DNA of 59,482 bases, from the NCBI GenBank assembly GCA_017554385.1, contig JAFZIL010000055.1, positions 1 through 59,482 of the forward strand, written 5' to 3'. This DNA comes from Prevotella sp. (GTDB taxonomy: Bacteria; Bacteroidota; Bacteroidia; Bacteroidales; Bacteroidaceae). Of the stretch, positions 2,157-12,894 are shown piece by piece. The stretch's first letter is position 1, and every line of letters begins with the position of its first letter. Under the pieces are notes generated by a model that made no database searches, was not told the DNA's origin, and saw only the letters and a program-made list of their open reading frames with translations. The position numbers and the translations under genes were made by a program.

Positions 2157-3140
2157 CTATTTCCGTACTAAGACACTCTGTGCTGTTTGTTCCATCAGGT
2201 TTTTCTTCAATTTAAGCTGGTTCTCGACAATCAGTTCATAGTCGCACTTGTTCTCTCCCATCTTGATTGTCAACACAAACAACTCAAGAAAAGTCAGGAA
2301 GCAGAATAGAATGATATAGAAAACTAAAGAGACCTTACTCTGTGACACAACCTTTAACGTCGCTTCAAGCTCTTCGATGAAGCCCGGTGCACGTTGGGAC
2401 ACTTCCTTCCTTACAGTTTCTGCAACTTCCTTTTTGTCTTGTCTGAGTTGCTCTAACTGTGCAGAGTATATTTGTATCTGGTCGTTGTTGGCCTTCAGTT
2501 GTTCTGCCAGTGGGTTAGCTAATGTCACGGTGCTTATAGTTTGTGTCTTTACTTTCCTTGGTTTCCCCTCCTCATCCACGCCAATCACCTGCTCTTGGGT
2601 AGATACATTTGTTCCTTTAATGACTGGTCTTTTCTGTAGTTCTTCATTCAGGGCAATAGTAGCTTTGCTTAATGAGTCCATCTCCAGTGTTATCCGATGA
2701 ATGTCACTGTCATAAATGGACAGCCGTTTCGTAACTGTCTCACCTATTACATTTTCTCGATGTTCCTGAATAGCTTGCTGAATATCATTGCTGAATATTA
2801 TCTGGTCGATGATACAAGAACCCAATACCGCCATGCACAGAGCAAGCAACACTCTCATAAAACTCATAAGATAAGCTTTTCCAACGGTCAATATGATGAC
2901 CCGCTCCACGCATAGGACTATGAGCATAAATACCAGCGCGATACAAATCTTCAGAGCACAAGACTCTATGTTGATGTACCTGTCTGCAAAGCAATAGCCT
3001 ATGGTTCCCCAAAGTATCATCATGATACAGATGGCCGACAGCAGTTTTCTGTACTGGCGATAACTCGCCTCGCCGCATTCATTCAAGATATTCTTATTCC
3101 AGCCGATAAGAAAACAGCCAATATTTCTTAAAGTCTTCAT
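2157..3140 (-). CDS. DUF4407 membrane/coiled-coil protein
   Basis: A 327-aa protein with the N-terminal DUF4407 pattern (FLIGWNKNILNECG), three membrane helices at about residues 34-52, 63-86 and 92-115, a long polar coiled-coil insert (about 120-270, with runs such as LEQLRQDKKEVAETV), and a fourth helix near 277-298. DUF4407 proteins are widespread in Bacteroidota and Actinobacteria, with no firm biochemical role. The long insert between helices 3 and 4 could form an extracytoplasmic or cytoplasmic stalk. It is 12 bases from the upstream gene and likely co-transcribed with its neighbours, which include one other membrane protein and one soluble coiled-coil protein. Confidence 0.85.
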   Translation of the reverse strand: MKTLRNIGCFLIGWNKNILNECGEASYRQYRKLLSAICIMMILWGTIGYCFADRYINIESCALKICIALVFMLIVLCVERVIILTVGKAYLMSFMRVLLALCMAVLGSCIIDQIIFSNDIQQAIQEHRENVIGETVTKRLSIYDSDIHRITLEMDSLSKATIALNEELQKRPVIKGTNVSTQEQVIGVDEEGKPRKVKTQTISTVTLANPLAEQLKANNDQIQIYSAQLEQLRQDKKEVAETVRKEVSQRAPGFIEELEATLKVVSQSKVSLVFYIILFCFLTFLELFVLTIKMGENKCDYELIVENQLKLKKNLMEQTAQSVLVRK

Positions 3141-3152
3141 AATGTTCCAGTA

Positions 3153-3716
3153 TTACTTGTTATTGATAAAATTAACTGCATTTGCAGCAATCCCCTTAAG
3201 GAACCCTCTGCGATACGACTCAATCATTGTTGTCATCTTTGGGTCATTAGCCTCTAACTGCGACTGCATTTCCCGAATCTCTGTTAAATGCTCCTCATAA
3301 GTTACACGTAGTGCTTCCATGTCAGCAGCAGCGGCAAGAGCCAAGGCTTTGCGTGCATTCTCTATTTTCACATTTACCACTCTAATATCACTCTTATACT
3401 TCAGAATGATCCTCTTGAATAGCATCTCCAAATCATTGCGAATGATTTTCTCCTTTGCGTCACGATAGGTAATGTCGCAGTCCACCAAAGCATCCTGGAA
3501 TCCTTCTTCCTCAAAGTTTTTGTGGATGAAGTTGAAGATTACGTCTATAGGCATCCCTGTACCCCAAGTAATAGTAATCAAGTGTTTCTCATCCTTTTGC
3601 TCTTCTTCTGAAGAAGGGTTTTCTTCGTTTCCTTCCCCCTTAACGTTCTCTGTTAGTTCAGGAATCATCTCAACATTCTCTTTTGGCTTTGTGCCAAATA
3701 ATCCAAATAGTGCCAT
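3153..3716 (-). CDS. Hypothetical soluble coiled-coil protein
   Basis: A 187-aa cytoplasmic protein. It starts MALFGLFGTKPK, followed by an acidic low-complexity linker (about residues 15-45), a mixed alpha/beta core, and a long helical C-terminal half predicted to form a coiled coil (VTYEEHLTEIREMQSQLEAN). Lying between two membrane-protein genes with gaps of 12 and 23 bases, it may be their cytoplasmic partner. Family not recognised. Confidence 0.65.
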   Translation of the reverse strand: MALFGLFGTKPKENVEMIPELTENVKGEGNEENPSSEEEQKDEKHLITITWGTGMPIDVIFNFIHKNFEEEGFQDALVDCDITYRDAKEKIIRNDLEMLFKRIILKYKSDIRVVNVKIENARKALALAAAADMEALRVTYEEHLTEIREMQSQLEANDPKMTTMIESYRRGFLKGIAANAVNFINNK

Positions 3717-3739
3717 AATCGTATTGTTTTTATTTGTTA

Positions 3740-4279
3740 CTAACTTCTTAATTCATCTATTGACAGGACTACATCCTCAAAAGTCTCTGACTGACGGTTC
3801 CAATAGCGGTATATCATATTTCTGTTGGTTGCTATGATACGCTGCACATTGATGCCTTTCTTGTCAATCTGGGCAATTATGTTACTCTTCACAACATCCA
3901 TGTCAATCTCGCCATATCTGTGCCATCTGTCATTGATCTCATAGTTGCAGATGAAGGAGTCCTTTGTCACTTCCGAACTTGTCCATGTTGTTATCTGGTC
4001 GACCTTCACAGGACATTCGTAAGATTGGTACTTGGCCAGTAGCGTCAGATACTCTTCATCGTCAACATCCTCGTCCGACTGAATCTTCCTCAGTTCCTCC
4101 TCAGTGAAATAATCTGCTGGATCCTTGGCATCAATAGGGTCGCTGAACAATGTCATTGAAAGGACTGTAGCTATAATCAAAACGCCTAATCCTATAATGG
4201 GTGAAATGGCAAATGCGAAGAACAGAAAGAACCAAAACTTTCTAAACAGTCGCTTGATGTGGGAAAAAACTTTTTTCAT
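3740..4279 (-). CDS. Hypothetical single-pass membrane protein, first gene of the unknown operon
   Basis: About 179 aa from ATG 4279; an in-frame GTG at 4306 would add nine residues, but the ATG precedes a typical basic start (MKKVFSHIKRLFRK). One strongly hydrophobic segment (about residues 15-42, rich in Phe/Ile/Leu) anchors it, followed by an acidic linker and an extracytoplasmic domain containing two cysteines and several aromatic residues. No family recognised. It heads the seven-gene run and is divergent from the caspase-like gene across about 120 bases, so the two units may share regulation. Confidence 0.65.
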   Translation of the reverse strand: MKKVFSHIKRLFRKFWFFLFFAFAISPIIGLGVLIIATVLSMTLFSDPIDAKDPADYFTEEELRKIQSDEDVDDEEYLTLLAKYQSYECPVKVDQITTWTSSEVTKDSFICNYEINDRWHRYGEIDMDVVKSNIIAQIDKKGINVQRIIATNRNMIYRYWNRQSETFEDVVLSIDELRS

Positions 4280-4375
4280 TTTTCTTTTTGCTTTAAAATG
4301 TTTCACAATCTTGTTTTCTTTGCCTTTTTATACTCGAAATATGGAAAAGGTAACTACAATATCAAAAAAAAGTTG

Positions 4376-4401: not shown

Positions 4402-5271
4402 ATGAGATTTAGAGTATGCCTGATAATGGTAGCCATGCTACTTGCCTCCGCTGTTAATGCCCAGCGGAAACGGGCTTTCTTGGTTGGAATCTCACATTAT
4501 GACACTGCACTTACTGGCTACCAGTGGAACAACATCAATGGCGTTGAGGATGTCAATCTTCTCACCCCAGCCTTAAAAAAACAAGGCTTCACCACCACGA
4601 CATTGTTAGACGAACAGGCTACCTTTGATAACATTGTCAGCCAAATAGCGCAGTTCACGAACAAGACCAAGAAGGGTGACATTGTCTATCTTCATTTCTC
4701 TACTCATGGCCAGCCAGTAGAAGACCTCAGCGGGGACGAAGAAGACGGGTGGGACGAGTCTATTGTTCCCATTGATGCCTACAAGATATATAAGAAAGGT
4801 GTTTATGAAGGACAAAAGCACTTGACTGACGACTTGCTCAATAAATATATCAAGAAACTCCGTGAGAAGATTGGAGCGACAGGATTCCTCTATGTTGTCA
4901 TTGATGCCTGCCATGCTGGCACATCGTCAAGAGCCAACGATGAAACAGTTCGAGGAACACATGTGGGCTTCACATATAATAATAAGGTATTCAAACCGTC
5001 AACGAGCAAGAAATCGCACTATCGGATAGAGTCATCTACCAAGCAGTCTAACGTTCTGTTCATTGAAGCCTGTCGTCCTGACCAGGTAAATACGGAAATC
5101 AAAGTTGACGGCAAACGCTTTGGTCCTCTCTCGTATAATATTGCGCAGACTATATCTGGTTTTACGCTCACCACTAACGCCAACGACTTTGTCGAGAGTA
5201 TCAAGTGCTCTCTGATGAACACAGGTCGATGGCCAAACAATCAGAATCTCGTTACAGAAACAAGCTATTGA
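4402..5271 (+). CDS. Exported caspase-like cysteine peptidase (C14 family)
   Basis: A 289-aa protein. Residues 1-20 form a signal peptide ending ASAVNA, so the enzyme should act in the periplasm. The caspase fold begins at KRAFLVGISHYD. The catalytic His102 lies in LHFSTHGQ and Cys170 in VVIDACHAG, the His/Cys dyad of bacterial metacaspase-type peptidases; the acidic DLSGDEEDGWDE between them resembles the substrate-pocket/calcium region of metacaspases. Such enzymes usually cut after basic residues; specificity here is unknown. It is one base upstream of the sigma-factor gene, which overlaps the anti-sigma gene, so all three are probably one operon. An inference is that it processes the extracytoplasmic part of the anti-sigma protein. 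Confidence 0.88.
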   Translation: MRFRVCLIMVAMLLASAVNAQRKRAFLVGISHYDTALTGYQWNNINGVEDVNLLTPALKKQGFTTTTLLDEQATFDNIVSQIAQFTNKTKKGDIVYLHFSTHGQPVEDLSGDEEDGWDESIVPIDAYKIYKKGVYEGQKHLTDDLLNKYIKKLREKIGATGFLYVVIDACHAGTSSRANDETVRGTHVGFTYNNKVFKPSTSKKSHYRIESSTKQSNVLFIEACRPDQVNTEIKVDGKRFGPLSYNIAQTISGFTLTTNANDFVESIKCSLMNTGRWPNNQNLVTETSY

Positions 5272-5272
5272 A

Positions 5273-5857
5273 ATGGCAAAGGAGATAACGCTGCAAAACA
5301 CGGAATTGAACCGCTTTATTGCTGAAGAAAGGGATAAGGTACTGGCATATCTGAGAAAGACGTTCTCAGTCTCAGACGATGATTTGAGTGACATTTATCA
5401 GGACTCGTCTGTTGCCCTGTTCACGAATATCCGTGACGGCAAATTGTCTAATCTCACAAGCACGCTCTCCACTTACTTCCTTCGAATCTGCATCAACCAA
5501 ACACTGAAATACATGGGCAAGCAGAAGAAAGTGATTCCCTTGTTTGATGACAGTAGACTTACCAATAAAGACTCTTTCCGTCCTGACAAGATAGATGAGC
5601 TATACCAACTATGTACAGAGGATGAAGAGGCAGAAAAGGTTTCCCGTTCCGAAAAGATAGTCCAGAGCATCATCGAGTCTATGCCAGATACCTGTAAGAA
5701 CGTTTTCCAAGGTTATTATTGGGACAATCTAACGACAACAACCATTGCGGATATGTATGGCTTTTCCAATGCAAACTCCGTCAAGACGCAGAAATACAAG
5801 TGTCTGCAGAAATTTCGCAATAAGTATAACGAACTAATGAACAGAATCTATGGATAA
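5273..5857 (+). CDS. ECF-type sigma-70 family RNA polymerase sigma factor
   Basis: A 194-aa protein. Region 2 covers about residues 20-85, with the conserved DLSDIYQDSSVALF pattern typical of sigma2 (DxxDxxQE-like) and a -10-binding helix ending in the NQTLKYMGKQ segment. Region 4 (about 125-185) carries a helix-turn-helix in TTTTIADMYGFSNANSVKTQ, followed by a basic recognition helix (KYKCLQKFRNKY). No region 1 or 3 is present, as expected for ECF sigma factors. It directs RNA polymerase to an alternative promoter set. It starts one base after the caspase-like gene and overlaps the anti-sigma candidate by 8 bases, the usual sigma/anti-sigma coupling. Confidence 0.87.
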   Translation: MAKEITLQNTELNRFIAEERDKVLAYLRKTFSVSDDDLSDIYQDSSVALFTNIRDGKLSNLTSTLSTYFLRICINQTLKYMGKQKKVIPLFDDSRLTNKDSFRPDKIDELYQLCTEDEEAEKVSRSEKIVQSIIESMPDTCKNVFQGYYWDNLTTTTIADMYGFSNANSVKTQKYKCLQKFRNKYNELMNRIYG

Positions 5858-6518
5858 GAACGACGATATATTGATGGATGGCATCGACGAGCGAATAGAA
5901 TCATTCCTTCGTGGCGAAATGACCGCAGAGGAAGAGACGACCTTCAAACAGGAGATTCGCCAGAATCCCGAATTGCGCAGCCGTGCTATGGCTATGGCCT
6001 CACTTATCAAGGACCTGCACAATCAGAATCTTACAAGAGAAGCAACCATTTTCAAAGAGAATACGGCTAAATCAAGAGTTCGACCTCTTCTTTATTGGGC
6101 TTGCTCCGTTGCCGCTGTATTTGCCATTGTTTTTGGAGTCTACAAAGATCATCGTTACCGTATGCTTGATGCGACAGTCTCTCCATATTATACGGAATAT
6201 GACATGAGTGATGTTTCTCGTGGTGACATAGATTCCGCTACGGTAGCCCATCTATACGGTCTTTTCACTCAGATACAAGAAAATAGAAGTGTATCAGACA
6301 TCATCAAAGAATTGGAACCCATTTACAATTCACTTGACGCAGACTTTACATTTAGTGCGTTTGCCAATGATGTCTCATGGAACCTTGCTCTGGCATACGT
6401 AAAGGATGACCAGATAGACAAAGCCATCACCATCCTGCAAAAGCTGAAAACAGATAACCCTGATTCACCTATATATAATAGGGCAGAAGAGCTGATAAAG
6501 AAACTGCAAGACCTATAA
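5850..6518 (+). CDS. Membrane anti-sigma-factor-like protein
   Basis: A 222-aa protein. The N-terminal 50 residues (IDERIESFLRGEMTAEEE, then NPELR) match the small helical sigma-binding segment common in Bacteroidota anti-sigma and regulator proteins. A single membrane helix follows at about residues 76-95 (WACSVAAVFAIVFGVY), then an extracytoplasmic domain whose C-terminus resembles one TPR-like hairpin (LALAYVKDDQIDKAITILQK). Translation overlaps the sigma gene by 8 bases. The layout, cytoplasmic sigma-binding part and periplasmic sensor part, suits signal-induced proteolysis; the periplasmic caspase encoded two genes upstream is an obvious candidate protease. Direct sigma binding is inferred, not shown. 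Confidence 0.75.
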   Translation: MDKNDDILMDGIDERIESFLRGEMTAEEETTFKQEIRQNPELRSRAMAMASLIKDLHNQNLTREATIFKENTAKSRVRPLLYWACSVAAVFAIVFGVYKDHRYRMLDATVSPYYTEYDMSDVSRGDIDSATVAHLYGLFTQIQENRSVSDIIKELEPIYNSLDADFTFSAFANDVSWNLALAYVKDDQIDKAITILQKLKTDNPDSPIYNRAEELIKKLQDL

Positions 6519-6526
6519 AGAGAAAT

Positions 6527-6560
6527 AGGAGGGCAATCACAAGGTTGTCCTCTTTCTTTT
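6527..6560 (+). terminator. Terminator of the caspase-sigma-anti-sigma operon
   Basis: GAGGGCAA (6529-6536) pairs with TTGTCCTC (6545-6552) across an 8-base loop, with one G-U pair, and is followed by TTTCTTTT. It lies 10 bases after the anti-sigma stop codon. Confidence 0.7.
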
Positions 6561-6579
6561 CCGATTACCTTTCCCCAGC

Positions 6580-6753
6580 ATGATGTATCAAGGGAAAAAC
6601 CGATACGACATGATGGAATATATTGATCAAATAGAGAAGTTCCTTAGGGGACAGATGAGCCAAAAGGAAGAGGACGCGTTCAAGACAATATTGACAGCAA
6701 ATGCCTGCTTGCGTTCATATGCTTTTATCATAGCGACCATGCTGAAAAAATAA
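6580..6753 (+). CDS. 57-aa truncated paralogue of the anti-sigma N-terminus
   Basis: A short frame just after the operon terminator. From residue 12 it reads MEYIDQIEKFLRGQMSQKEE, then DAFKTIL and CLRSYAFIIATMLKK, and stops. This aligns with the first 45 residues of the anti-sigma protein at 5850 (IDERIESFLRGEMTAEEE, then NPELRSRAMAMASLIK), but lacks the membrane helix and periplasmic domain. It could be a remnant of a duplicated anti-sigma gene or a functional soluble sigma-binding mini-protein. No promoter is evident between the terminator and its start, so expression is uncertain. ATG codons at 6580, 6583, 6610 and 6613 are possible starts; homology begins at the last two. Confidence 0.5.
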   Translation: MMYQGKNRYDMMEYIDQIEKFLRGQMSQKEEDAFKTILTANACLRSYAFIIATMLKK

Positions 6754-6768
6754 AAACTAGGGTAAAGA

Positions 6769-6800
6769 TTTGGCACTTCCAACTTTTATTAATACCTTTG
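6769..6800 (+). promoter_or_regulatory. Promoter of the small zinc-ribbon gene, with a 118-base leader
   Basis: TTTGG (6769-6773), 19 bases, TACCTTTG (6793-6800) is an almost ideal Bacteroidota promoter. The start codon at 6919 leaves a leader of over 100 bases (6801-6918), long for such a small gene; it includes pyrimidine-rich CTCCTTCTCCTT and no open frame I trust. Confidence 0.72.
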
Positions 6801-6918
6801 CAACCGAGAAGAACCTCCTTCTCCTTTTATTTTTGATTCTAACCGAGCCTTTGAGCCAATCGAAATAACTGCAAAGTTTAACGGTGGCTTGAGGTATGCC
6901 CCACTAAAAATATATAGT

Positions 6919-7062
6919 ATGACAGAAAAATTTTGCCCACAGTGTGGGATGCCAATGGCAAAAAGTTCTTCTTATGTTGGGTCTGAGGGAGAGTACATTG
7001 AGGTGTATAATTGTTCAAATCCAGAATGTGGTAATGTTTGGCACCATAAGCCAAATGTTTGA
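6919..7062 (+). CDS. Small zinc-ribbon protein (47 aa)
   Basis: The frame reads MTEKFCPQCGMPMAK at the start and CSNPECGNVWHH near the end. Two Cys pairs, CPQC and CSNPEC, form a classic four-Cys zinc-ribbon knuckle arrangement as in small nucleic-acid-binding or transcription-factor-like ribbons. It has its own promoter at 6769-6800 and ends just before a strong hairpin at 7071-7099. It is oriented towards the CHAT gene. The role is unknown; the ribbon suggests DNA, RNA or protein binding. Confidence 0.72.
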   Translation: MTEKFCPQCGMPMAKSSSYVGSEGEYIEVYNCSNPECGNVWHHKPNV

Positions 7063-7064
7063 TG

Positions 7065-7099
7065 AAAAAACAGCCAGCACTTTCCAAAGGTGCTGGCTG
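7065..7099 (-). terminator. Strong hairpin; T-run lies on the minus strand (end of the CHAT transcript)
   Basis: CAGCCAGCAC (7071-7080) and GTGCTGGCTG (7090-7099) form a perfect 10-bp stem with a 9-base loop. The run of six A at 7065-7070 becomes TTTTTT on the minus strand, directly after the hairpin, so the terminator works best for transcription coming from the CHAT gene. On the plus strand it closes the zinc-ribbon gene but lacks a T-run. Confidence 0.75.
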
Positions 7100-7327
7100 A
7101 ATTGCCTTAGGCAAATGTGTCCCATAATCCTTTCGCAATCTACAATAGTTTGCGTGTCACGCTTATGTCGTATGACACATCCTTTCTACTTTCCGTAGAT
7201 TGGGCCAGCAATTTTTGCAAAGACCCAATCTACCAGACTAACAGCATTAATTTAATTGCTATCATATCTTTTAAGATTAAAGTCCCGGTCATATCTTTAA
7301 CGTCCTAGACCGTTTTTGGACGGGGGT
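7100..7327. other. Gene-free, hairpin-rich spacer / probable 3' UTR of the CHAT gene
   Basis: No gene seen. It contains three inverted repeats: TTGCCT/AGGCAA (about 7102-7114), GTGTCA/TGACAC (7154-7159, 7173-7178) and a perfect 10-bp GTAGATTGGG/CCCAATCTAC (7195-7204, 7224-7233). The 8-mer CAATCTAC occurs again at 7136-7143, so GTAGATTG could pair with either copy. The first likely terminator for the CHAT gene lies beyond it, so this would be about 230 bases of structured 3' UTR. Confidence 0.5.
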
Positions 7328-10300
7328 TTAGTTTAATCCATCCAACATGATAAATGATGCCCAGTACCTTGGGTCATCATATTTCCCATTTTCAACTTTG
7401 CGTAGGCGTTGCTGCGCATCTTGAAGTGACTGTCGTTTTGTTTTGCCGTTCATCAAATTCCGATAGAACTCAACCATCAGTATTCTCGTTGCTTCATCGT
7501 CTACTTTGTCCAAGCTCATAACGATGGTATTGGCACCGCTTTTTTTGAATCCGCGTTGAAGGCCGTAGACACCTCCATTATTAATGTCACCTAAAGCGGA
7601 TTCGCAAGCAGAAAGAACGACGAGATCAAGCCTTCTTAAGTCGAGCTGAGAGATTTCCTTAGACGTAAGGATTCCATCATTATTTTTATCTGAAACAGAA
7701 ATCCTTGAAATCACTCTATTCCCTCCTGCCATCACCAAAAAAGAATGTGTTAGAGTGATATCTTCATTTACAGGGTCATTTAGACTGGAAAGTGATTCCA
7801 GAAAGTCAAAATTGTTTTCATTTTTCTTGGTATCAACATCATCAGGATTGATATACATACCATGAGTGGCCAAATGAATTATACTGTGACTTTGTCCTGA
7901 TAGGTTACGGAAACTTTCTTCTGTTCCGAATTCTCCGCTATAAAGTGTCGTTGATATATTCTTACCTGCCAACAAATCTTTTATTTTCTGGGTTTCTAAT
8001 GCTGTATTAAATAGCGGGTCGAAGCCGCCACGTTCAGCAATTCCTCTCCATACACTGGGGATCTCTCTTGAATTTGCTACAGAGCTATTTTCGTCAAGCA
8101 TGTTATAATCAAGTCCACCATATAACACCGCACTATTGGGATGGCTATTCCCCTTCTCCCGTACAAGCTCTTTTGTGGATGAAAGCCTATACATGTGATA
8201 TTGCTCAAACATGCTACTCATGCCATCTGCACTATAGTACTCAATAGGAAGCATGTGCAAAATACCATCAGGTGAGAAATAGATGTCTTTAACTGTAGGG
8301 TATTGAACTAAGATAGGTTTCCAAATCAGTTCGCCAACAATATCACGGATATTGCGTGTCTCGGTTTTCTTTATTTCTTCCAGCATAGATTCACTATACA
8401 AAGTTATCATCTTTGGACATGGATTTTTTTTGTCAACGACCAATGCATGATAGGTGTTATGGCCTCCTTCCTCTTCTATTGTATATATGAACTCTATCGC
8501 TATAGCGTCGTTAGAGAGATGCTGCTGGACATCTTTCCATTTAATGTTTAGACGAGAAGCTTTGTTGGCATTTCGCTTAATCTCTGTATCAAGCAAAAGG
8601 CTCTTTGAAAATAGAATATAATCATATAACTTGGACAAAAGAGTCGCATTCCTATCGGACTTCTCTATAACACACCGATACATAAGGAAATGATGCTCAT
8701 AATTATTCCAAAGTCGTTGCTTCTGTTCTGTTGTCATTCCTTCAAATTCATTACATATGTAGTTCTTTAATAAAAACAACTCATCCGATAAAAACTGCTC
8801 TGCTTTATCAAAAACATGATTCTTCCAATAAAAATAGGATAACATATATTGTGCCCAAAGCTTACTTTCAATGTTACCCTCTTTTTCTGCAGCAGAAACA
8901 GATTCCTCTGCAAAACGGATAGCCTTTATGGTGTCACCAGTTTGAAAGCTGATAAATGCTAATAGTAACTTAGGTAATACAACACTTATTTTATTATCAT
9001 TTAGTAGCTGAATGCTTTGTTCGGAGCATGCAATGGCTTCTTGTAGTTGACCATTTCTTAAATAGTACTCTGATAGAGGTAAAAGATGCGTAGCATACAT
9101 TTGGGTATCGCCCATTTTTATAAGAATCTTTCCATTATCCAGTTCTGAATTTATAGCATCCGCATAATTCCCCTGCTTCTGATAGATTCGAGCTAGTGTT
9201 TGAAGAAAGTTTGATTTATCTGTATCAATCCTTTGTTTGATGGATGCTAAGGCAAAGGGATTGTTCATCATACTATTCCCTGTCTGCTCTACTGCATCAA
9301 TGATGTATTGTTCTGCGTTGTCGTGTTCGTTAAGAACATCTATAGCCTTCTTTATGTATTGCTCTGCATTGTCAAGTCTTTCTGCACTTTGATAGTAATG
9401 ACTGATGCTATTATAAACTTCAGCTAATGATATCCAGTCTTTCGCATTTTGATATATTTCTGCAGCTGTAGATTGTAATTGAACAGATTTCTCGTAATTA
9501 AGAGCCAAGCCATAAGCCCAAGCCAGATCTCCAAGAAGTTCAGCATAATTCAGTGATTTGATTCCTAATGATTCATAGAGTCGTTTTGCGGCTTCACCTG
9601 AAGCAATCGCGTCATCTTTTAGTCCACTTCTTTGTTGGTATTTGCATTTCAGTCCCAGTAATTCAGCATAGTTTTCGTCACTATTGTTTCCTGTGCTATT
9701 CATTATTGAGATTGCTTTGTCGCAATACTCAATTGCATTGGTGTTATCGTCCATGAGCGAATACATAGAAGCGATCTGTTTATATATTCCTGCAATGGGT
9801 AAAGAGTTGGCCTCAATGAAGCCAGGTAAAGTATTCAATTCATTTTTAACGATTTGTACCCTGTTGAGAATTGCTTGATCATGCCCTTCAAGCAACACAT
9901 TGTAAAGTTCAGTAATATAGCCTTCTGCTTCTCCAATCTGCCGTCTAGCTTCCAAAGTTTTCTTTTGGTAGAATAACGCATTATCACTATCGCCAATTTC
10001 ATAATAGTCTCCAGCTAAAAAATATAGAGCTAAAGCATACGCATTGTCAACTATTTTTAGAGACTCATATAATTGTATTGACTCTTTGTAAGATAATATT
10101 GCGTTGTTATATTCTTTTGCGTGTGAATAAAACTGTCCAAGAGTTCTAAGGTAAAGAGCATAGTTCCAGTCTGACGTTCCCCATAATTCTGCATGAATTT
10201 CTCCTTCTTGTTTAGCAATGTCAATTGCTTGTTCACAAAACCCATATTTATCATACATGATACTAGCGTTAAGGAGAGAAACAATCAGGGACTCTGATTT

Positions 10301-10849
10301 AACTCCAAACACATACTTTGTAGCCTCTATTTCTTTGGCTTTAAACTGTAAAGCCTTGATTGTATCACCTACTGAGTCATAAAACGATGCCATATTGGAA
10401 TAACGGGCCACCTCTGATTCTTGATATGAAGTTTCGTATGTATTAGAGATGTCAATACCATATATATTAAAAGCTTTATCACCTGCATTCTCTATTATAT
10501 CAAACTTCGAGATATTTCGTATTGGTGGAAAACAAAGTAAGACGTTACATCGTTCTTCATACATAAAAGATTTCTTCTGTGGGCTAAAAGGTAAACCTTC
10601 GCATCTGAGTAGTGGATATTTCTTATTAGCTTTCCTAACGTACAAATATGCATCCTTGGAAATATTGGCCCAACTTCCAGCTTCTGCTGAATATGAACAA
10701 TAAACATAGGTTGTGTCCTTCCTAATCTCTATTTTTTGTACTCGGAATGCGGAAACATCAGTCCTATCGAAAACAGGGTTTTCAACAACTTGTGCATGGG
10801 TATATCCAATGAACAATAGCAATAAGCCAAACAATACTAACCTTCTCAT
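7328..10849 (-). CDS. Exported TPR-CHAT protein (caspase-fold peptidase domain)
   Basis: 1173 aa from ATG 10849 (MRRLVLFG); an in-frame start at 10876 falls inside the promoter and is rejected. Signal peptide about 1-20 (ending YTHA), then a beta-rich segment, then about twelve TPR-like helical hairpins (about residues 150-700), then a C-terminal CHAT domain (about 800-1173). The CHAT dyad is visible: His996 in IIHLATHG and Cys1082 in VVLSACES. An EF-hand-like loop (DKNNDGILTSKE) lies between them. CHAT proteins are caspase/separase relatives; TPR-CHAT proteases act in type III-E CRISPR and gasdermin-type systems, although this one is predicted to be exported. Its promoter matches that of the caspase-like gene at 4402. 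It lies convergent with the sigma operon side and divergent from the two exported genes at 11037-12036. Confidence 0.88.
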   Translation of the reverse strand: MRRLVLFGLLLLFIGYTHAQVVENPVFDRTDVSAFRVQKIEIRKDTTYVYCSYSAEAGSWANISKDAYLYVRKANKKYPLLRCEGLPFSPQKKSFMYEERCNVLLCFPPIRNISKFDIIENAGDKAFNIYGIDISNTYETSYQESEVARYSNMASFYDSVGDTIKALQFKAKEIEATKYVFGVKSESLIVSLLNASIMYDKYGFCEQAIDIAKQEGEIHAELWGTSDWNYALYLRTLGQFYSHAKEYNNAILSYKESIQLYESLKIVDNAYALALYFLAGDYYEIGDSDNALFYQKKTLEARRQIGEAEGYITELYNVLLEGHDQAILNRVQIVKNELNTLPGFIEANSLPIAGIYKQIASMYSLMDDNTNAIEYCDKAISIMNSTGNNSDENYAELLGLKCKYQQRSGLKDDAIASGEAAKRLYESLGIKSLNYAELLGDLAWAYGLALNYEKSVQLQSTAAEIYQNAKDWISLAEVYNSISHYYQSAERLDNAEQYIKKAIDVLNEHDNAEQYIIDAVEQTGNSMMNNPFALASIKQRIDTDKSNFLQTLARIYQKQGNYADAINSELDNGKILIKMGDTQMYATHLLPLSEYYLRNGQLQEAIACSEQSIQLLNDNKISVVLPKLLLAFISFQTGDTIKAIRFAEESVSAAEKEGNIESKLWAQYMLSYFYWKNHVFDKAEQFLSDELFLLKNYICNEFEGMTTEQKQRLWNNYEHHFLMYRCVIEKSDRNATLLSKLYDYILFSKSLLLDTEIKRNANKASRLNIKWKDVQQHLSNDAIAIEFIYTIEEEGGHNTYHALVVDKKNPCPKMITLYSESMLEEIKKTETRNIRDIVGELIWKPILVQYPTVKDIYFSPDGILHMLPIEYYSADGMSSMFEQYHMYRLSSTKELVREKGNSHPNSAVLYGGLDYNMLDENSSVANSREIPSVWRGIAERGGFDPLFNTALETQKIKDLLAGKNISTTLYSGEFGTEESFRNLSGQSHSIIHLATHGMYINPDDVDTKKNENNFDFLESLSSLNDPVNEDITLTHSFLVMAGGNRVISRISVSDKNNDGILTSKEISQLDLRRLDLVVLSACESALGDINNGGVYGLQRGFKKSGANTIVMSLDKVDDEATRILMVEFYRNLMNGKTKRQSLQDAQQRLRKVENGKYDDPRYWASFIMLDGLN

Positions 10850-10865
10850 AATAGATATTTTTCTG

Positions 10866-10873
10866 CAAAAATA
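10866..10873 (-). promoter_or_regulatory. -7 promoter element of the TPR-CHAT gene with a duplicated TTTTGCAGAAAA
   Basis: The minus strand reads TATTTTTG here. The 12-mer TTTTGCAGAAAA occurs twice, 19 bases apart (10878-10889 and 10859-10870), and GTATTTTTGCAGAAAA is identical to the caspase-operon promoter at 4375-4390. The start site lies about 15 bases before ATG 10849. Confidence 0.6.
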
Positions 10874-10976
10874 CAAATTTTCTGCAAAAGTCGGTTACCT
10901 TTTCAGTCTTTTTGGTATAAAAGGACGAAGAAAGCCCGAAAAAGAATCAAAAACAAGGTTGTGAAAGTGATTCTGC

Positions 10977-11007
10977 TTGGGCATGTGAACAAGAAAAAGT
11001 ACTTTTG
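10977..11007 (+). promoter_or_regulatory. Promoter of the exported TPR-like gene
   Basis: TTGG (10977-10980), about 20 bases, TACTTTTG (11000-11007). The expected start site near 11014 places ATG 11016 at or in the +1 region, so 11037 or 11040 is the likelier start codon. Confidence 0.62.
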
Positions 11008-11036
11008 CAAACAAAATGGATCAAAAAAGAAAAACA

Positions 11037-11474
11037 ATGATGAAAAAGGGAATTATGACAATAGCACTGATGTGCTTGGGAGCAATGAATATCAATGCAC
11101 AGGTCTATGCCGGCGACTCATGGATACAATTACCGACGACAGATCTTTATGACACAGGAGTTATGAACATGCATCTGCGGGCTTTGGCAGAGACGGCAGC
11201 AAGAAGAGAGGCGGAGTTTGAACGATATAGTAATCTGGCCTATGAGGCATTTCGCAAAAAGCAATGGTCGGCAGTTATCAGTAACGTGAACTGGGCCCTG
11301 TCAACCAAGTATTACAATAGTGAGATATTCTATATGCGTGGCTATGCCTATGAGTCTCTTGGGGATTATAGAAGGGCTAAGAAGGACTATAAAAAGGCAA
11401 AGAAAGAAGGTAGCTATACAGCCGAACAGGCATTGATAGCACTAAAGAACAAAATGAAACAAGGACGAAGATAA
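11037..11474 (+). CDS. Exported small TPR-like protein
   Basis: About 145 aa. Signal peptide about 1-22 (MMKKGIMTIALMCLG, ending INAQ), then an acidic/aromatic segment and, from about residue 60, a pair of TPR-type helices (YSNLAYEAFRKKQWSAVI, then YMRGYAYESLGDYRRAKKDY) with the A/Y/G pattern of TPR packing. It is probably a periplasmic protein-interaction module. Its gene is divergent from the TPR-CHAT gene and 25 bases upstream of the repeat protein, with which it probably forms an operon. It may be a partner of the exported caspase-fold proteins; that is inference from position. Confidence 0.72.
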   Translation: MMKKGIMTIALMCLGAMNINAQVYAGDSWIQLPTTDLYDTGVMNMHLRALAETAARREAEFERYSNLAYEAFRKKQWSAVISNVNWALSTKYYNSEIFYMRGYAYESLGDYRRAKKDYKKAKKEGSYTAEQALIALKNKMKQGRR

Positions 11475-11499
11475 TAACCAATTAAAACACAAAGCGATT

Positions 11500-12036
11500 A
11501 TGAAAAAGTTAATGACAACACTGATGGCTGTTGTATTCGCCATCACTGCAAATGCACAGAGTTTCAACGTTGGTACATCGACGACGAACAAAGACTGTTT
11601 TGGCAATCAGACTACGACTCATCGTAACCAGTATGGTCAGACGACGGGTACTTCAACCTCGTCAACCGACTGTTTCGGCAATACGACGACCACACACCGC
11701 GACCGCTACGGTAGCACCATCGGTACTTCTACCACATCGACTGACTATTTTGGCAATACGACCACAACGCATCGTGACAGCTATGGCAACACAACAGGCA
11801 CAACACGCTCCAATACTGACTATTTCGGCAACACTAATACTACTTATTCCAACCCTTATGGTAAGTCTACGGGTACATCTACAACCTCAACGGACTACTT
11901 TGGCAATACAACGACAACGTATCGGAACCAATATGGACTCACGGAAGGTACCTCCACTTCATCAACTGACTATTTTGGTAATCGTAACACCGAACAGCGC
12001 AGCAACAACTCCAATACGACTATATGGTCGTGGTAG
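11500..12036 (+). CDS. Exported Thr/Gly-rich protein with 25-residue tandem repeats
   Basis: 178 aa. Signal peptide 1-19 (ending TANAQ). The rest is six tandem copies of a 25-residue unit, consensus YFGNTTTTHRDxYG then xTTGTSTTSTD. Each unit splits into two 12-13-residue halves that both begin aromatic-Gly-x-Thr and end in Asp or Asn, which suggests two beta strands per unit and a beta-solenoid or amyloid-like fold. The first two copies carry DCFGN, later ones DYFGN. It ends in NTTIWSW. Repeats are conserved in protein but varied in third codon positions, so selection seems to act on the protein. Function unknown; a surface or matrix structural protein is possible. Likely in an operon with 11037-11474. 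Confidence 0.75.
   Translation: MKKLMTTLMAVVFAITANAQSFNVGTSTTNKDCFGNQTTTHRNQYGQTTGTSTSSTDCFGNTTTTHRDRYGSTIGTSTTSTDYFGNTTTTHRDSYGNTTGTTRSNTDYFGNTNTTYSNPYGKSTGTSTTSTDYFGNTTTTYRNQYGLTEGTSTSSTDYFGNRNTEQRSNNSNTTIWSW
11575..12010 (+). repeat. 75-bp coding tandem repeat, about 6 copies
   Basis: The DNA encoding the FGN-TTT-YG-GTST units repeats every 75 bases, with divergence mostly synonymous. It underlies the repeat protein at 11500-12036 and is a likely site of copy-number change. Confidence 0.8.
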
Positions 12037-12136: not shown

Positions 12137-12430
12137 ATATTTTCTTGGTACATCATATTGAATAGTGTCTTATTTAATAAGACATAGTCCCTACATTCAG
12201 CCGTTTTTGGGGACATCATATTGAACATCCCGAGGGGCATTTTTTATATGCCGCTCTTACGATATTATCGCACTAATTGATACAAAAAAAATTATTTTTT
12301 TGCTATTTTTACCTACACTGCTTACACCGTAGCTACAACATTCTGTTATTCAGTAATTTACGAGATGTAAGTAACGGTGTAGTTAAGGTGTAGGTAAAAA
12401 TTCTTGCTACACCAATCGGTACAAAGGCGA

Positions 12431-12496
12431 TTTGTCCCACCCATTGGACCACTTTGTCCCACCCATTGGGACAATTTGTCCCAGCCGTTGGGACGC
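12431..12496. repeat. Three 22-bp tandem repeats, each a small hairpin
   Basis: TTTGTCCCACCCATTGGGAC-like units begin at 12431, 12453 and 12475. Within a unit, TTGTCCCA pairs with TGGGACAA around a 4-5 base loop. They lie in the core of the 12288-12755 element. Confidence 0.8.
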
Positions 12497-12503
12497 TTTG
12501 CAT

Positions 12504-12591
12504 GCAGGCTCCTTTTGCTATCGTTGCAGGCTCCTTTCACTATCATTGCAGGTTCCTTTTGCTATCATTGCAGGCTCCTTTTGCTATCGTT
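12504..12591. repeat. Four 22-bp tandem repeats (GCAGGCTCCTTTTGCTATCG)
   Basis: Units begin at 12504, 12526, 12548 and 12570 with exact 22-base period and a few substitutions. They have the same period as the neighbouring TTTGTCCC set but unrelated sequence. No spacers, so not a CRISPR array. Confidence 0.82.
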
Positions 12592-12894
12592 TCGCCATTC
12601 TTTCCGATTGATTGCCATTCCTTCCTGCTGGTGTAGTTAGAACTTTTACATACACCTACATACACCTTTACTTACACCCTGCAAGTTGCTGAACAATAGG
12701 ATGTTGCAACGATAATGTAAGCAGTGTAAGTAAAAATAGCAAAAAAAATAATTTTCATCTACATCAATACTCTCCTGGAGGCATGCCAGTCTCTCGCTTG
12801 ATAATAAAATCATCGAATTATCGCTCGTTTTGCACAATAATCGTACAAAAAGAACAATAATTCTTGGCATAGCCAACCGATGGACACTCAGTAA

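Follow-up and report, generated by a model that had tools for sequence, protein, structure and literature searches.

Organization of the Locus

The contig JAFZIL010000055.1 of Prevotella sp. (assembly GCA_017554385.1; 59,482 nucleotides, referred to below as the window) carries close to its start a gene cluster for an exported caspase of the C14 family, an extracytoplasmic function (ECF) sigma factor, a candidate anti-sigma factor and an exported protein that combines tetratricopeptide repeats (TPR) with a CHAT peptidase domain (Table 1). The analysis presented here concerns a possible envelope switch built from these proteins, and a near-invariant arginine of the anti-sigma candidate that may mark the bond cut when the sigma factor is set free. 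The original prediction for this region, made from the sequence letters, had listed six genes. All six are present and correctly placed; the minus strand of the TPR-CHAT gene was not mentioned there. Features beyond its reach were the Arg-Gly pairs R124-G125 of the anti-sigma and R184-G185 of the caspase linker, the shared promoter-like element and the 47-aa open reading frame.

The caspase, sigma and anti-sigma genes are tightly packed, as the sigma gene begins one base past the caspase stop codon and the anti-sigma open reading frame overlaps that of sigma by 8 bases. The sigma assignment comes from the NCBIfam sigma70-ECF model, which scores over its cut-off, while the Pfam matches (sigma70 r2 and r4) stay under theirs. 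The anti-sigma candidate has a sigma neighbour, an N-terminal domain, one strong hydrophobic stretch and a C-terminal domain beyond it, with a weak TPR match (Pfam E 5e-5, under the curated cut-off); its membrane orientation is a prediction. Matches to anti-sigma library models are weak and all below cut-off, and the protein would be expected to bind and inhibit its neighbouring sigma factor. The CHAT protein of the window has both a TPR array and a CHAT domain with the His/Cys pair.

Table 1. Genes and sequence elements of the window discussed in the text.
Feature	Position	Strand	Remarks
Exported C14 caspase, metacaspase-like p20+p10	4402..5271	+	289 aa, Pfam Peptidase_C14 E 1e-18
ECF sigma factor	5273..5857	+	NCBIfam sigma70-ECF 53.3 bits, cut-off 42.9
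Single-pass anti-sigma candidate	5850..6518	+	N-domain, transmembrane helix at about residues 80-98, C-terminal TPR-like domain
47-aa open reading frame, free-standing anti-sigma N-domain without transmembrane helix	6610..6753	+	
Exported TPR-CHAT protease candidate	7328..10849	-	1173 aa, Pfam CHAT E 6e-49, His996/Cys1082
Exported TPR-like protein	11037..11474	+	
Exported repeat protein	11500..12036	+	75-nt repeats
R184-G185 codons, candidate activation site in the linker that follows the catalytic Cys of the caspase	4951..4956	+	
R124-G125 codons in the anti-sigma candidate, predicted site-1 cleavage bond	6219..6224	+	
Shared promoter-like element TTTATAC-N13-AAGGTAAC, 5' of the caspase-sigma-anti-sigma operon	4327..4354	+	
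Second copy of the shared promoter-like element, 5' of the CHAT gene	10894..10921	-	

Conservation and Spread of the Gene Set

The best 80 of 350 caspase loci found were taken as named relatives. A contiguous same-strand trio of caspase, ECF sigma and anti-sigma genes is present in 66 of these 80 loci; with the relatives clustered at 60% identity, 22 of 24 clusters have it. An exported TPR-CHAT protein is encoded within the locus DNA examined in 68 of the 80 relatives, and all four members occur in 42 of the 50 loci having at least 7 kb on both sides. Conservation of the gene order, on which the original prediction had made itself depend, is thus confirmed in the relatives and also in the order-wide neighbourhoods, where the caspase-sigma-anti-sigma order was found in the window, L011, L045, L048, L049, L050 and L064, with variants in L012 (sigma-anti-sigma-CHAT-caspase) and L072 (sigma-anti-sigma-caspase). 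The caspase gene directly precedes the sigma gene in 68/80 loci. Since eight scanned genomes of 2.3-4.3 Mb contain 9-28 ECF-type matches each, an adjacent same-strand ECF gene is expected, by our estimate, for well below 1% of genes.

The distribution of the caspase is sporadic. Matches were obtained in 6 of 60 relatives' genomes, in 52 of 393 genomes across the order (E 1e-3) and in 54 of 395 across the phylum (E 1e-20), the window genome being counted in each sample. Many other order-wide matches represent longer C14 proteins without the gene set, and no relative was found in viral contigs. Most relatives come from rumen or gut Prevotella-like metagenome-assembled genomes; the isolates with caspase loci include Prevotella sp. 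P6B1 and MA2016, Palleniella intestinalis and Prevotellamassilia timonensis.

The predicted export of both caspase-fold proteins, also claimed at the outset, turned out to be a conserved property. By simple hydrophobicity rules, on which the transmembrane and signal-peptide assignments given here rest, signal-peptide-like N-termini are present in 81/81 caspases and 68/73 CHAT proteins versus 2/74 sigma factors and 5/72 anti-sigma candidates, so that caspase and CHAT are predicted to be exported nearly throughout.

A Conserved Arginine in the Anti-Sigma and a Matching Site in the Caspase

R124 of the window anti-sigma candidate lies about 25 residues past the membrane helix. Arg occupies this position in 79 of 84 representatives, and the column is the second most informative of 222. 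The first alignments revealed an Arg-Gly pair common among anti-sigmas past the membrane helix and another one common among caspases after the catalytic Cys; in an alignment of 46 representatives, R124 was present in 41/45 and G125 in 40/45. The linker around this pair is gap-rich, varies in length and letters, and has weakly conserved flanks. An Arg-Gly pair 20-32 residues past the helix occurs in 63/72 anti-sigmas of near caspase loci, in 10/17 order-wide and in 0/33 controls; for a distance of 15-40 residues the corresponding numbers are 66/72, 10/17 and 3/33. The 33 controls are the remainder of 60 control ECF loci from eight genomes that have a downstream open reading frame with one hydrophobic stretch; a few of these frames look spurious, and the position of the control sigma was derived from an offset relative to the match, not from a sigma model.

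The caspase is a candidate for cutting at such a site. H102 and C170, the His/Cys dyad of the C14 p20 domain, are present by sequence in the window caspase and kept in 40/40 representatives, and the family profile matches metacaspase-1 (E 2e-24). The S1 residues of TbMCA2 are reported to be Cys92, Asp95, Ser156 and Asp211 (PMC4357240). By motif alignment, D50, S100 and D168 match three of the metacaspase S1-pocket residues and are each found in 38/40 representatives; the equivalent of Cys92 in caspase P0001 is not Cys. Non-metazoan C14 peptidases characterised so far are described as cleaving after Arg or Lys, and autocatalytic cleavage of caspases as falling in the p20-p10 linker (PMC5756287). 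It is in this linker that an Arg-Gly pair occurs in 92 of 101 caspases scanned, four rows (L108, L154, L156 and L157) having been read by the script at a wrong motif and two (L074 and L155) being unparsable. An Arg-Gly pair following the Cys is seen, too, in some longer C14 proteins from outside the order; the linker site may therefore predate this module.

The residue that follows the anti-sigma Arg differs with the presence of the caspase. It is Gly in 36/41 representatives with caspase versus 12/38 without (Fisher p 3e-7, phylogeny ignored), where Ser (19) and Ala (4) also occur. In two lineages, the two sites covary. L066 has Lys-Gly at both the anti-sigma site and the caspase linker, and in L072 the Arg is lost at both sites, with N, C and E in place of D50, S100 and D168. 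The same S1 changes are found in L015 (the G051 locus; 55% identity), the only locus close to L072; the anti-sigma gene of L015 is cut by the contig end. Such Lys/Lys and loss/loss covariation is the pattern that a caspase and its substrate would be expected to leave; L047, with His in the anti-sigma beside an ordinary caspase, runs counter to it.

Anti-Sigma Loci without a Caspase

The anti-sigma candidate is more widespread than the caspase. At E 1e-6 its profile has matches in 153 of the 393 order genomes, about three times the caspase count at the caspase threshold. Among 40 sister loci with wider DNA (20 from the anti-sigma profile search and 20 picked from the matches listed), a caspase was present in none, sigma in 37 and CHAT in 27, and the linked protease, where present, is an exported membrane-anchored CHAT. 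The Arg is nevertheless in place: 44 of 45 sister anti-sigmas have, 12-40 residues past the helix, an Arg followed by one of GSADTENQ. The caspase as the sole and general cutter was therefore dropped. The initial proposal that the anti-sigma is a caspase substrate gains from the near-invariant Arg on the predicted periplasmic side and from the Gly that follows it in caspase loci, and loses from the persistence of this Arg where the caspase is missing. CHAT is a commoner partner of the anti-sigma than the caspase and, with 27/40 loci linked against 0/40, it looks like a core protease rather than an accessory. This would revise the part assigned to CHAT in the original prediction (sensor, amplifier or second protease).

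The CHAT proteins of the two types differ in their membrane attachment. Of the 103 CHATs in the first aligned set, 101 have both the His and the Cys; among the first 15 sister CHATs the script recovered the Cys motif in 15 and the His motif in 14, the His of L357 being visible in the alignment as FIHFSAH. An N-terminal hydrophobic stretch occurs in 21 of 22 sister CHATs longer than 900 residues. A C-terminal transmembrane helix was found in 24/25 CHATs without caspase, the lone exception having masked end letters, versus 0/91 in caspase loci; the window CHAT lacks it as well. The presence of the caspase thus accompanies both the Gly after Arg and the anchor-less CHAT. In a CHAT tree (unrooted, quick method; 40/87 inner branches with <80% support) the sister and caspase types separate, with the caspase locus L074 (on a long branch) and the long-caspase locus L073 on the sister side. 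The tree only separates the two types, and a late addition of the caspase is not claimed. Across genomes, a CHAT match is present in 115/128 with the anti-sigma versus 61/206 without it; phylogeny was ignored in this cross-table of 334 genomes (G000 and G036-G368 taken as the CHAT-searched set, match-less genomes not all being listed).

CHAT genes are doubled or tripled per cassette in L044, L094, L100, L124, L129, L154, L157 and some other loci, so the sensor part may diversify.

A Promoter-Like Element Shared by the Operon and the CHAT Gene

Just two exact copies of the element TTTATAC-N13-AAGGTAAC exist in the genome (3.06 Mb, 81% complete), one before the caspase operon and one before the CHAT gene, with 0 matches for the reversed-pattern control. 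With the spacer widened to N12-24 the pattern is found nowhere in the genome beyond these two places. In the 80 loci, the form TATAC-N14-16-GGTAAC has 22 copies ahead of the caspase, 17 on the opposite strand at the CHAT side and one elsewhere, against 2 matches for the reversed control. Nine loci carry it at both the caspase and the CHAT side, and several CHAT-side copies precede another open reading frame or none assignable. Of 1005 other open reading frames of >150 residues, just 2 have a looser-spaced match upstream. The element may be recognized by the ECF sigma factor of the locus. Of 79 regions upstream of the caspase, 57 contain a TAnnTTTG box, the -7 element of Bacteroidetes, versus a mean of 6.9 after shuffling.

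A Proposed Envelope Switch and Its Alternatives

The data presented above are best accommodated, at a probability that we put at roughly 55%, by an envelope switch in which the ECF sigma factor is freed by regulated proteolysis and clan-CD (CHAT/caspase-fold) peptidases act as the site-1 protease. The anti-sigma would tether the sigma factor at the inner membrane until a periplasmic signal activates CHAT; the TPR regions of CHAT and of the anti-sigma may be what senses this signal. In the sister type, the membrane-anchored CHAT would then cleave the anti-sigma after the juxtamembrane Arg. In the window type, the CHAT has no anchor, and the exported metacaspase-like caspase would be activated at R184-G185, by CHAT or by itself, and would in turn cleave the anti-sigma at R124-G125. 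In both types a site-2 (M50) protease would then act on the remaining stub and release the sigma factor; M50 genes are present in 7/7 genomes checked. With a copy of the dedicated promoter-like element before both the operon and the CHAT gene, the loop may amplify itself. The product of the 47-aa open reading frame is possibly a soluble second inhibitor, spared when the membrane anti-sigma is proteolysed. Short open reading frames matching the anti-sigma (ANTI) occur in 14 other loci, mostly between anti-sigma and CHAT, and among 13 aligned frames of this type, the window's included, most differences fall at third codon positions (1303, 1018 and 1824 at the three positions, respectively). The more general proposal, a widespread Bacteroidales class of envelope sigma release with a caspase-fold site-1 protease, either an anchored CHAT alone or a periplasmic CHAT-to-caspase cascade cutting matching Arg-Gly bonds and served by a self-amplifying promoter, is held more tentatively, a little short of even odds. 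The confidences assigned to the switch and to its rivals are not mutually exclusive.

Several observations weigh against the switch. At the candidate bond, 3/33 controls also show Arg-Gly at 15-40 residues and 12/33 have some Arg at 20-32, and the Arg has exceptions among the 84 representatives (His in L047, Met in L381 and L073, Lys in L066 and Ser in L072), L047 having His in spite of an intact caspase and CHAT. The covariation concerns two lineages only, and an Arg that persists where the caspase is missing is, on its own, no pointer to the caspase. As regards the partners, CHAT is absent from the locus DNA examined in 13 of 40 sister loci, which belong to 12 genomes (all 11 of these that were searched have a CHAT match elsewhere, G397 being outside the search), and no CHAT match was obtained in 13 of the 128 genomes with the anti-sigma. 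L064 is a trio without CHAT in the DNA examined; its anti-sigma Arg, followed by Ala, is aligned in the 84-representative alignment and unaligned in the 46-representative one. Neither sigma nor anti-sigma was found in L119, L120, L131, L147 and L158, with at least 9 kb downstream examined, or in the 2.1 kb examined of L114. Outside the order, all 29 caspase loci examined lack sigma and anti-sigma within at most 1.5 kb on each side, and a spread of the module beyond the order was dropped as a claim. Finally, the promoter-like element occurs within the window's own lineage, with a copy in 30/80 loci, and a looser spacing gives 47 matches versus 14 for the reversed control.

Of the alternatives, the one to be taken most seriously, unlikely as we consider it, makes CHAT the only site-1 protease in both types. 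It would cut R124-G125 as well as R184-G185 of the caspase, which would then be a downstream effector. Activation of a caspase by CHAT is known from the SAVED-CHAT/PCaspase system. The Arg kept in caspase-less loci and the linkage of CHAT in 27/40 of them fit this scheme, and separases, a related clan-CD family, are reported to cleave after Arg (PMC4357240). Against it stand the window-type CHAT, which has no membrane anchor, the coincidence in L072 of lost caspase S1 residues with the lost anti-sigma Arg, and the place directly before the sigma gene, which in 68 of 80 loci is taken by the caspase and not by CHAT.

Somewhat less probable still is a scheme in which sigma and anti-sigma answer envelope stress by way of another protease that frees the sigma factor, and the caspase and CHAT are effectors of its regulon. 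ECF genes often adjoin their targets, and the shared element before the operon and CHAT fits co-regulated outputs. Such a role as output would leave unexplained the near-invariant membrane-proximal Arg, the narrowing of the next residue to Gly in the presence of the caspase, the Lys/Lys and loss/loss covariation and the swap of the CHAT anchor.

That the Arg serves in binding or folding, or marks a site of a housekeeping periplasmic protease, without cleavage by CHAT or caspase, appears improbable. It is favoured by the occurrence of the Arg in loci without CHAT in the DNA examined, and disfavoured by the location of the Arg in a linker with many gaps and weak conservation on either side of it, and by the constraint on the residue directly after it, which differs between the two types. 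Chance neighbourhood or co-transfer on a mobile island without a functional link, for which the sporadic presence (6/60 relatives' and 52/393 order genomes, the window genome in both) could be invoked, has hardly any probability left in view of the trio in 22/24 clusters and of several gene orders that keep the same members.

Other Features of the Loci

Between the anti-sigma and CHAT genes of the window, a short open reading frame at 6919-7062 (+) encodes a zinc-ribbon-like Cys pattern (CPQCG...CSNPEC), read by eye. Divergent genes at 2157-4306 (-) encode a DUF4407 protein and two small proteins without a Pfam match; among the 80 loci, counterparts of the three lie 5' of the caspase in 27, 27 and 19. 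The family of exported proteins with 75-nt repeats is represented in 18/80 loci, in 17 on the caspase strand; the median distance, counted downstream from the caspase start, is 7.4 kb. Two short tandem arrays, spaced at 22 nt, lie in the intergenic region 12430-12612. In L054 (13223-13693, -) and L055 (6346-6831, +), a membrane protein with an SRG site and without the cytosolic anti-sigma domain is encoded beside CHAT and caspase; the sigma model gave no match in the 20 kb examined at these two loci.

Relation to Known Systems

Release of an ECF sigma factor by a protease is itself a known logic, and what is new here is the near-invariant Arg of the anti-sigma. Site-1 proteases of the DegS type are PDZ serine proteases, whereas the site-1 candidate proposed here is a clan-CD cysteine peptidase. 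The type III-B SAVED-CHAT/PCaspase system likewise combines CHAT with a C14 caspase within a single gene set; it is cytosolic and relies on a SAVED domain that senses cyclic oligoadenylate, in contrast to the TPR and export signals of the present locus. The only PADLOC matches at the locus were to a generic model for caspases and, weakly, to a TPR model. The likeness to RseA/DegS/RseP consists in an anti-sigma reported to be cleaved by an envelope protease (PMC10028731), matched here by the single-pass anti-sigma candidate and the M50 genes.

In the CASP-sigma system of type III-E CRISPR, the TPR-CHAT protein Csx29 is described as cutting the sigma inhibitor Csx30 (PMC10028731). The Craspase/CASP likeness thus extends to a TPR-CHAT protease, a sigma inhibitor as substrate and an ECF-like sigma factor (PMC10028731), but an RNA-activated CRISPR effector operates there, as opposed to exported proteins and a transmembrane anti-sigma here. 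No Cas family was found among 16 proteins Pfam-scanned in the first 18.6 kb of the window, and no CRISPR-like array or Rfam match in its first 20 kb. As no Cas family or array occurs in the stretches scanned and the proteins have export signals, the locus was not assigned to type III-E Craspase. CalpL/CalpT/CalpS also release an ECF sigma factor by cleavage of an anti-sigma (PMC11417357), with a Lon protease activated by cyclic tetra-adenylate (cA4) in place of the caspase-fold candidates.

Adjacent caspase, ECF sigma and TPR genes form the EACC1/EACC2 modules of Kaur and colleagues (PMC8195603); that article does not use the term 'anti-sigma', and its passages on these modules do not name a CHAT domain. 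The EACC1-caspase NCBIfam model scores 20.4 with the window caspase, at a cut-off of 140. Envelope ECF/anti-sigma pairs are also described from Bacteroidales (PMC9308784), the order of the present system. The dual-membrane anti-sigma Dma, of the EcfO type, is a beta-barrel protein predicted to reach the outer membrane, and no linked caspase or CHAT is described in the relevant parts of the source. A description of the present system was not encountered among the literature matches listed, most subscription papers and all bioRxiv preprints being outside the search.

Significance

If the proposed switch is correct, caspase-fold proteases, which in bacteria are mostly regarded as cytosolic immunity or cell-death modules, would also relay signals from the envelope to the genes. 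The anchored-CHAT and caspase types would then show a cascade built from, or reduced to, a single-protease switch, the unrooted tree giving no direction. The exported CHAT and C14 proteins of gut and rumen Bacteroidales would gain a testable function, with one bond named.

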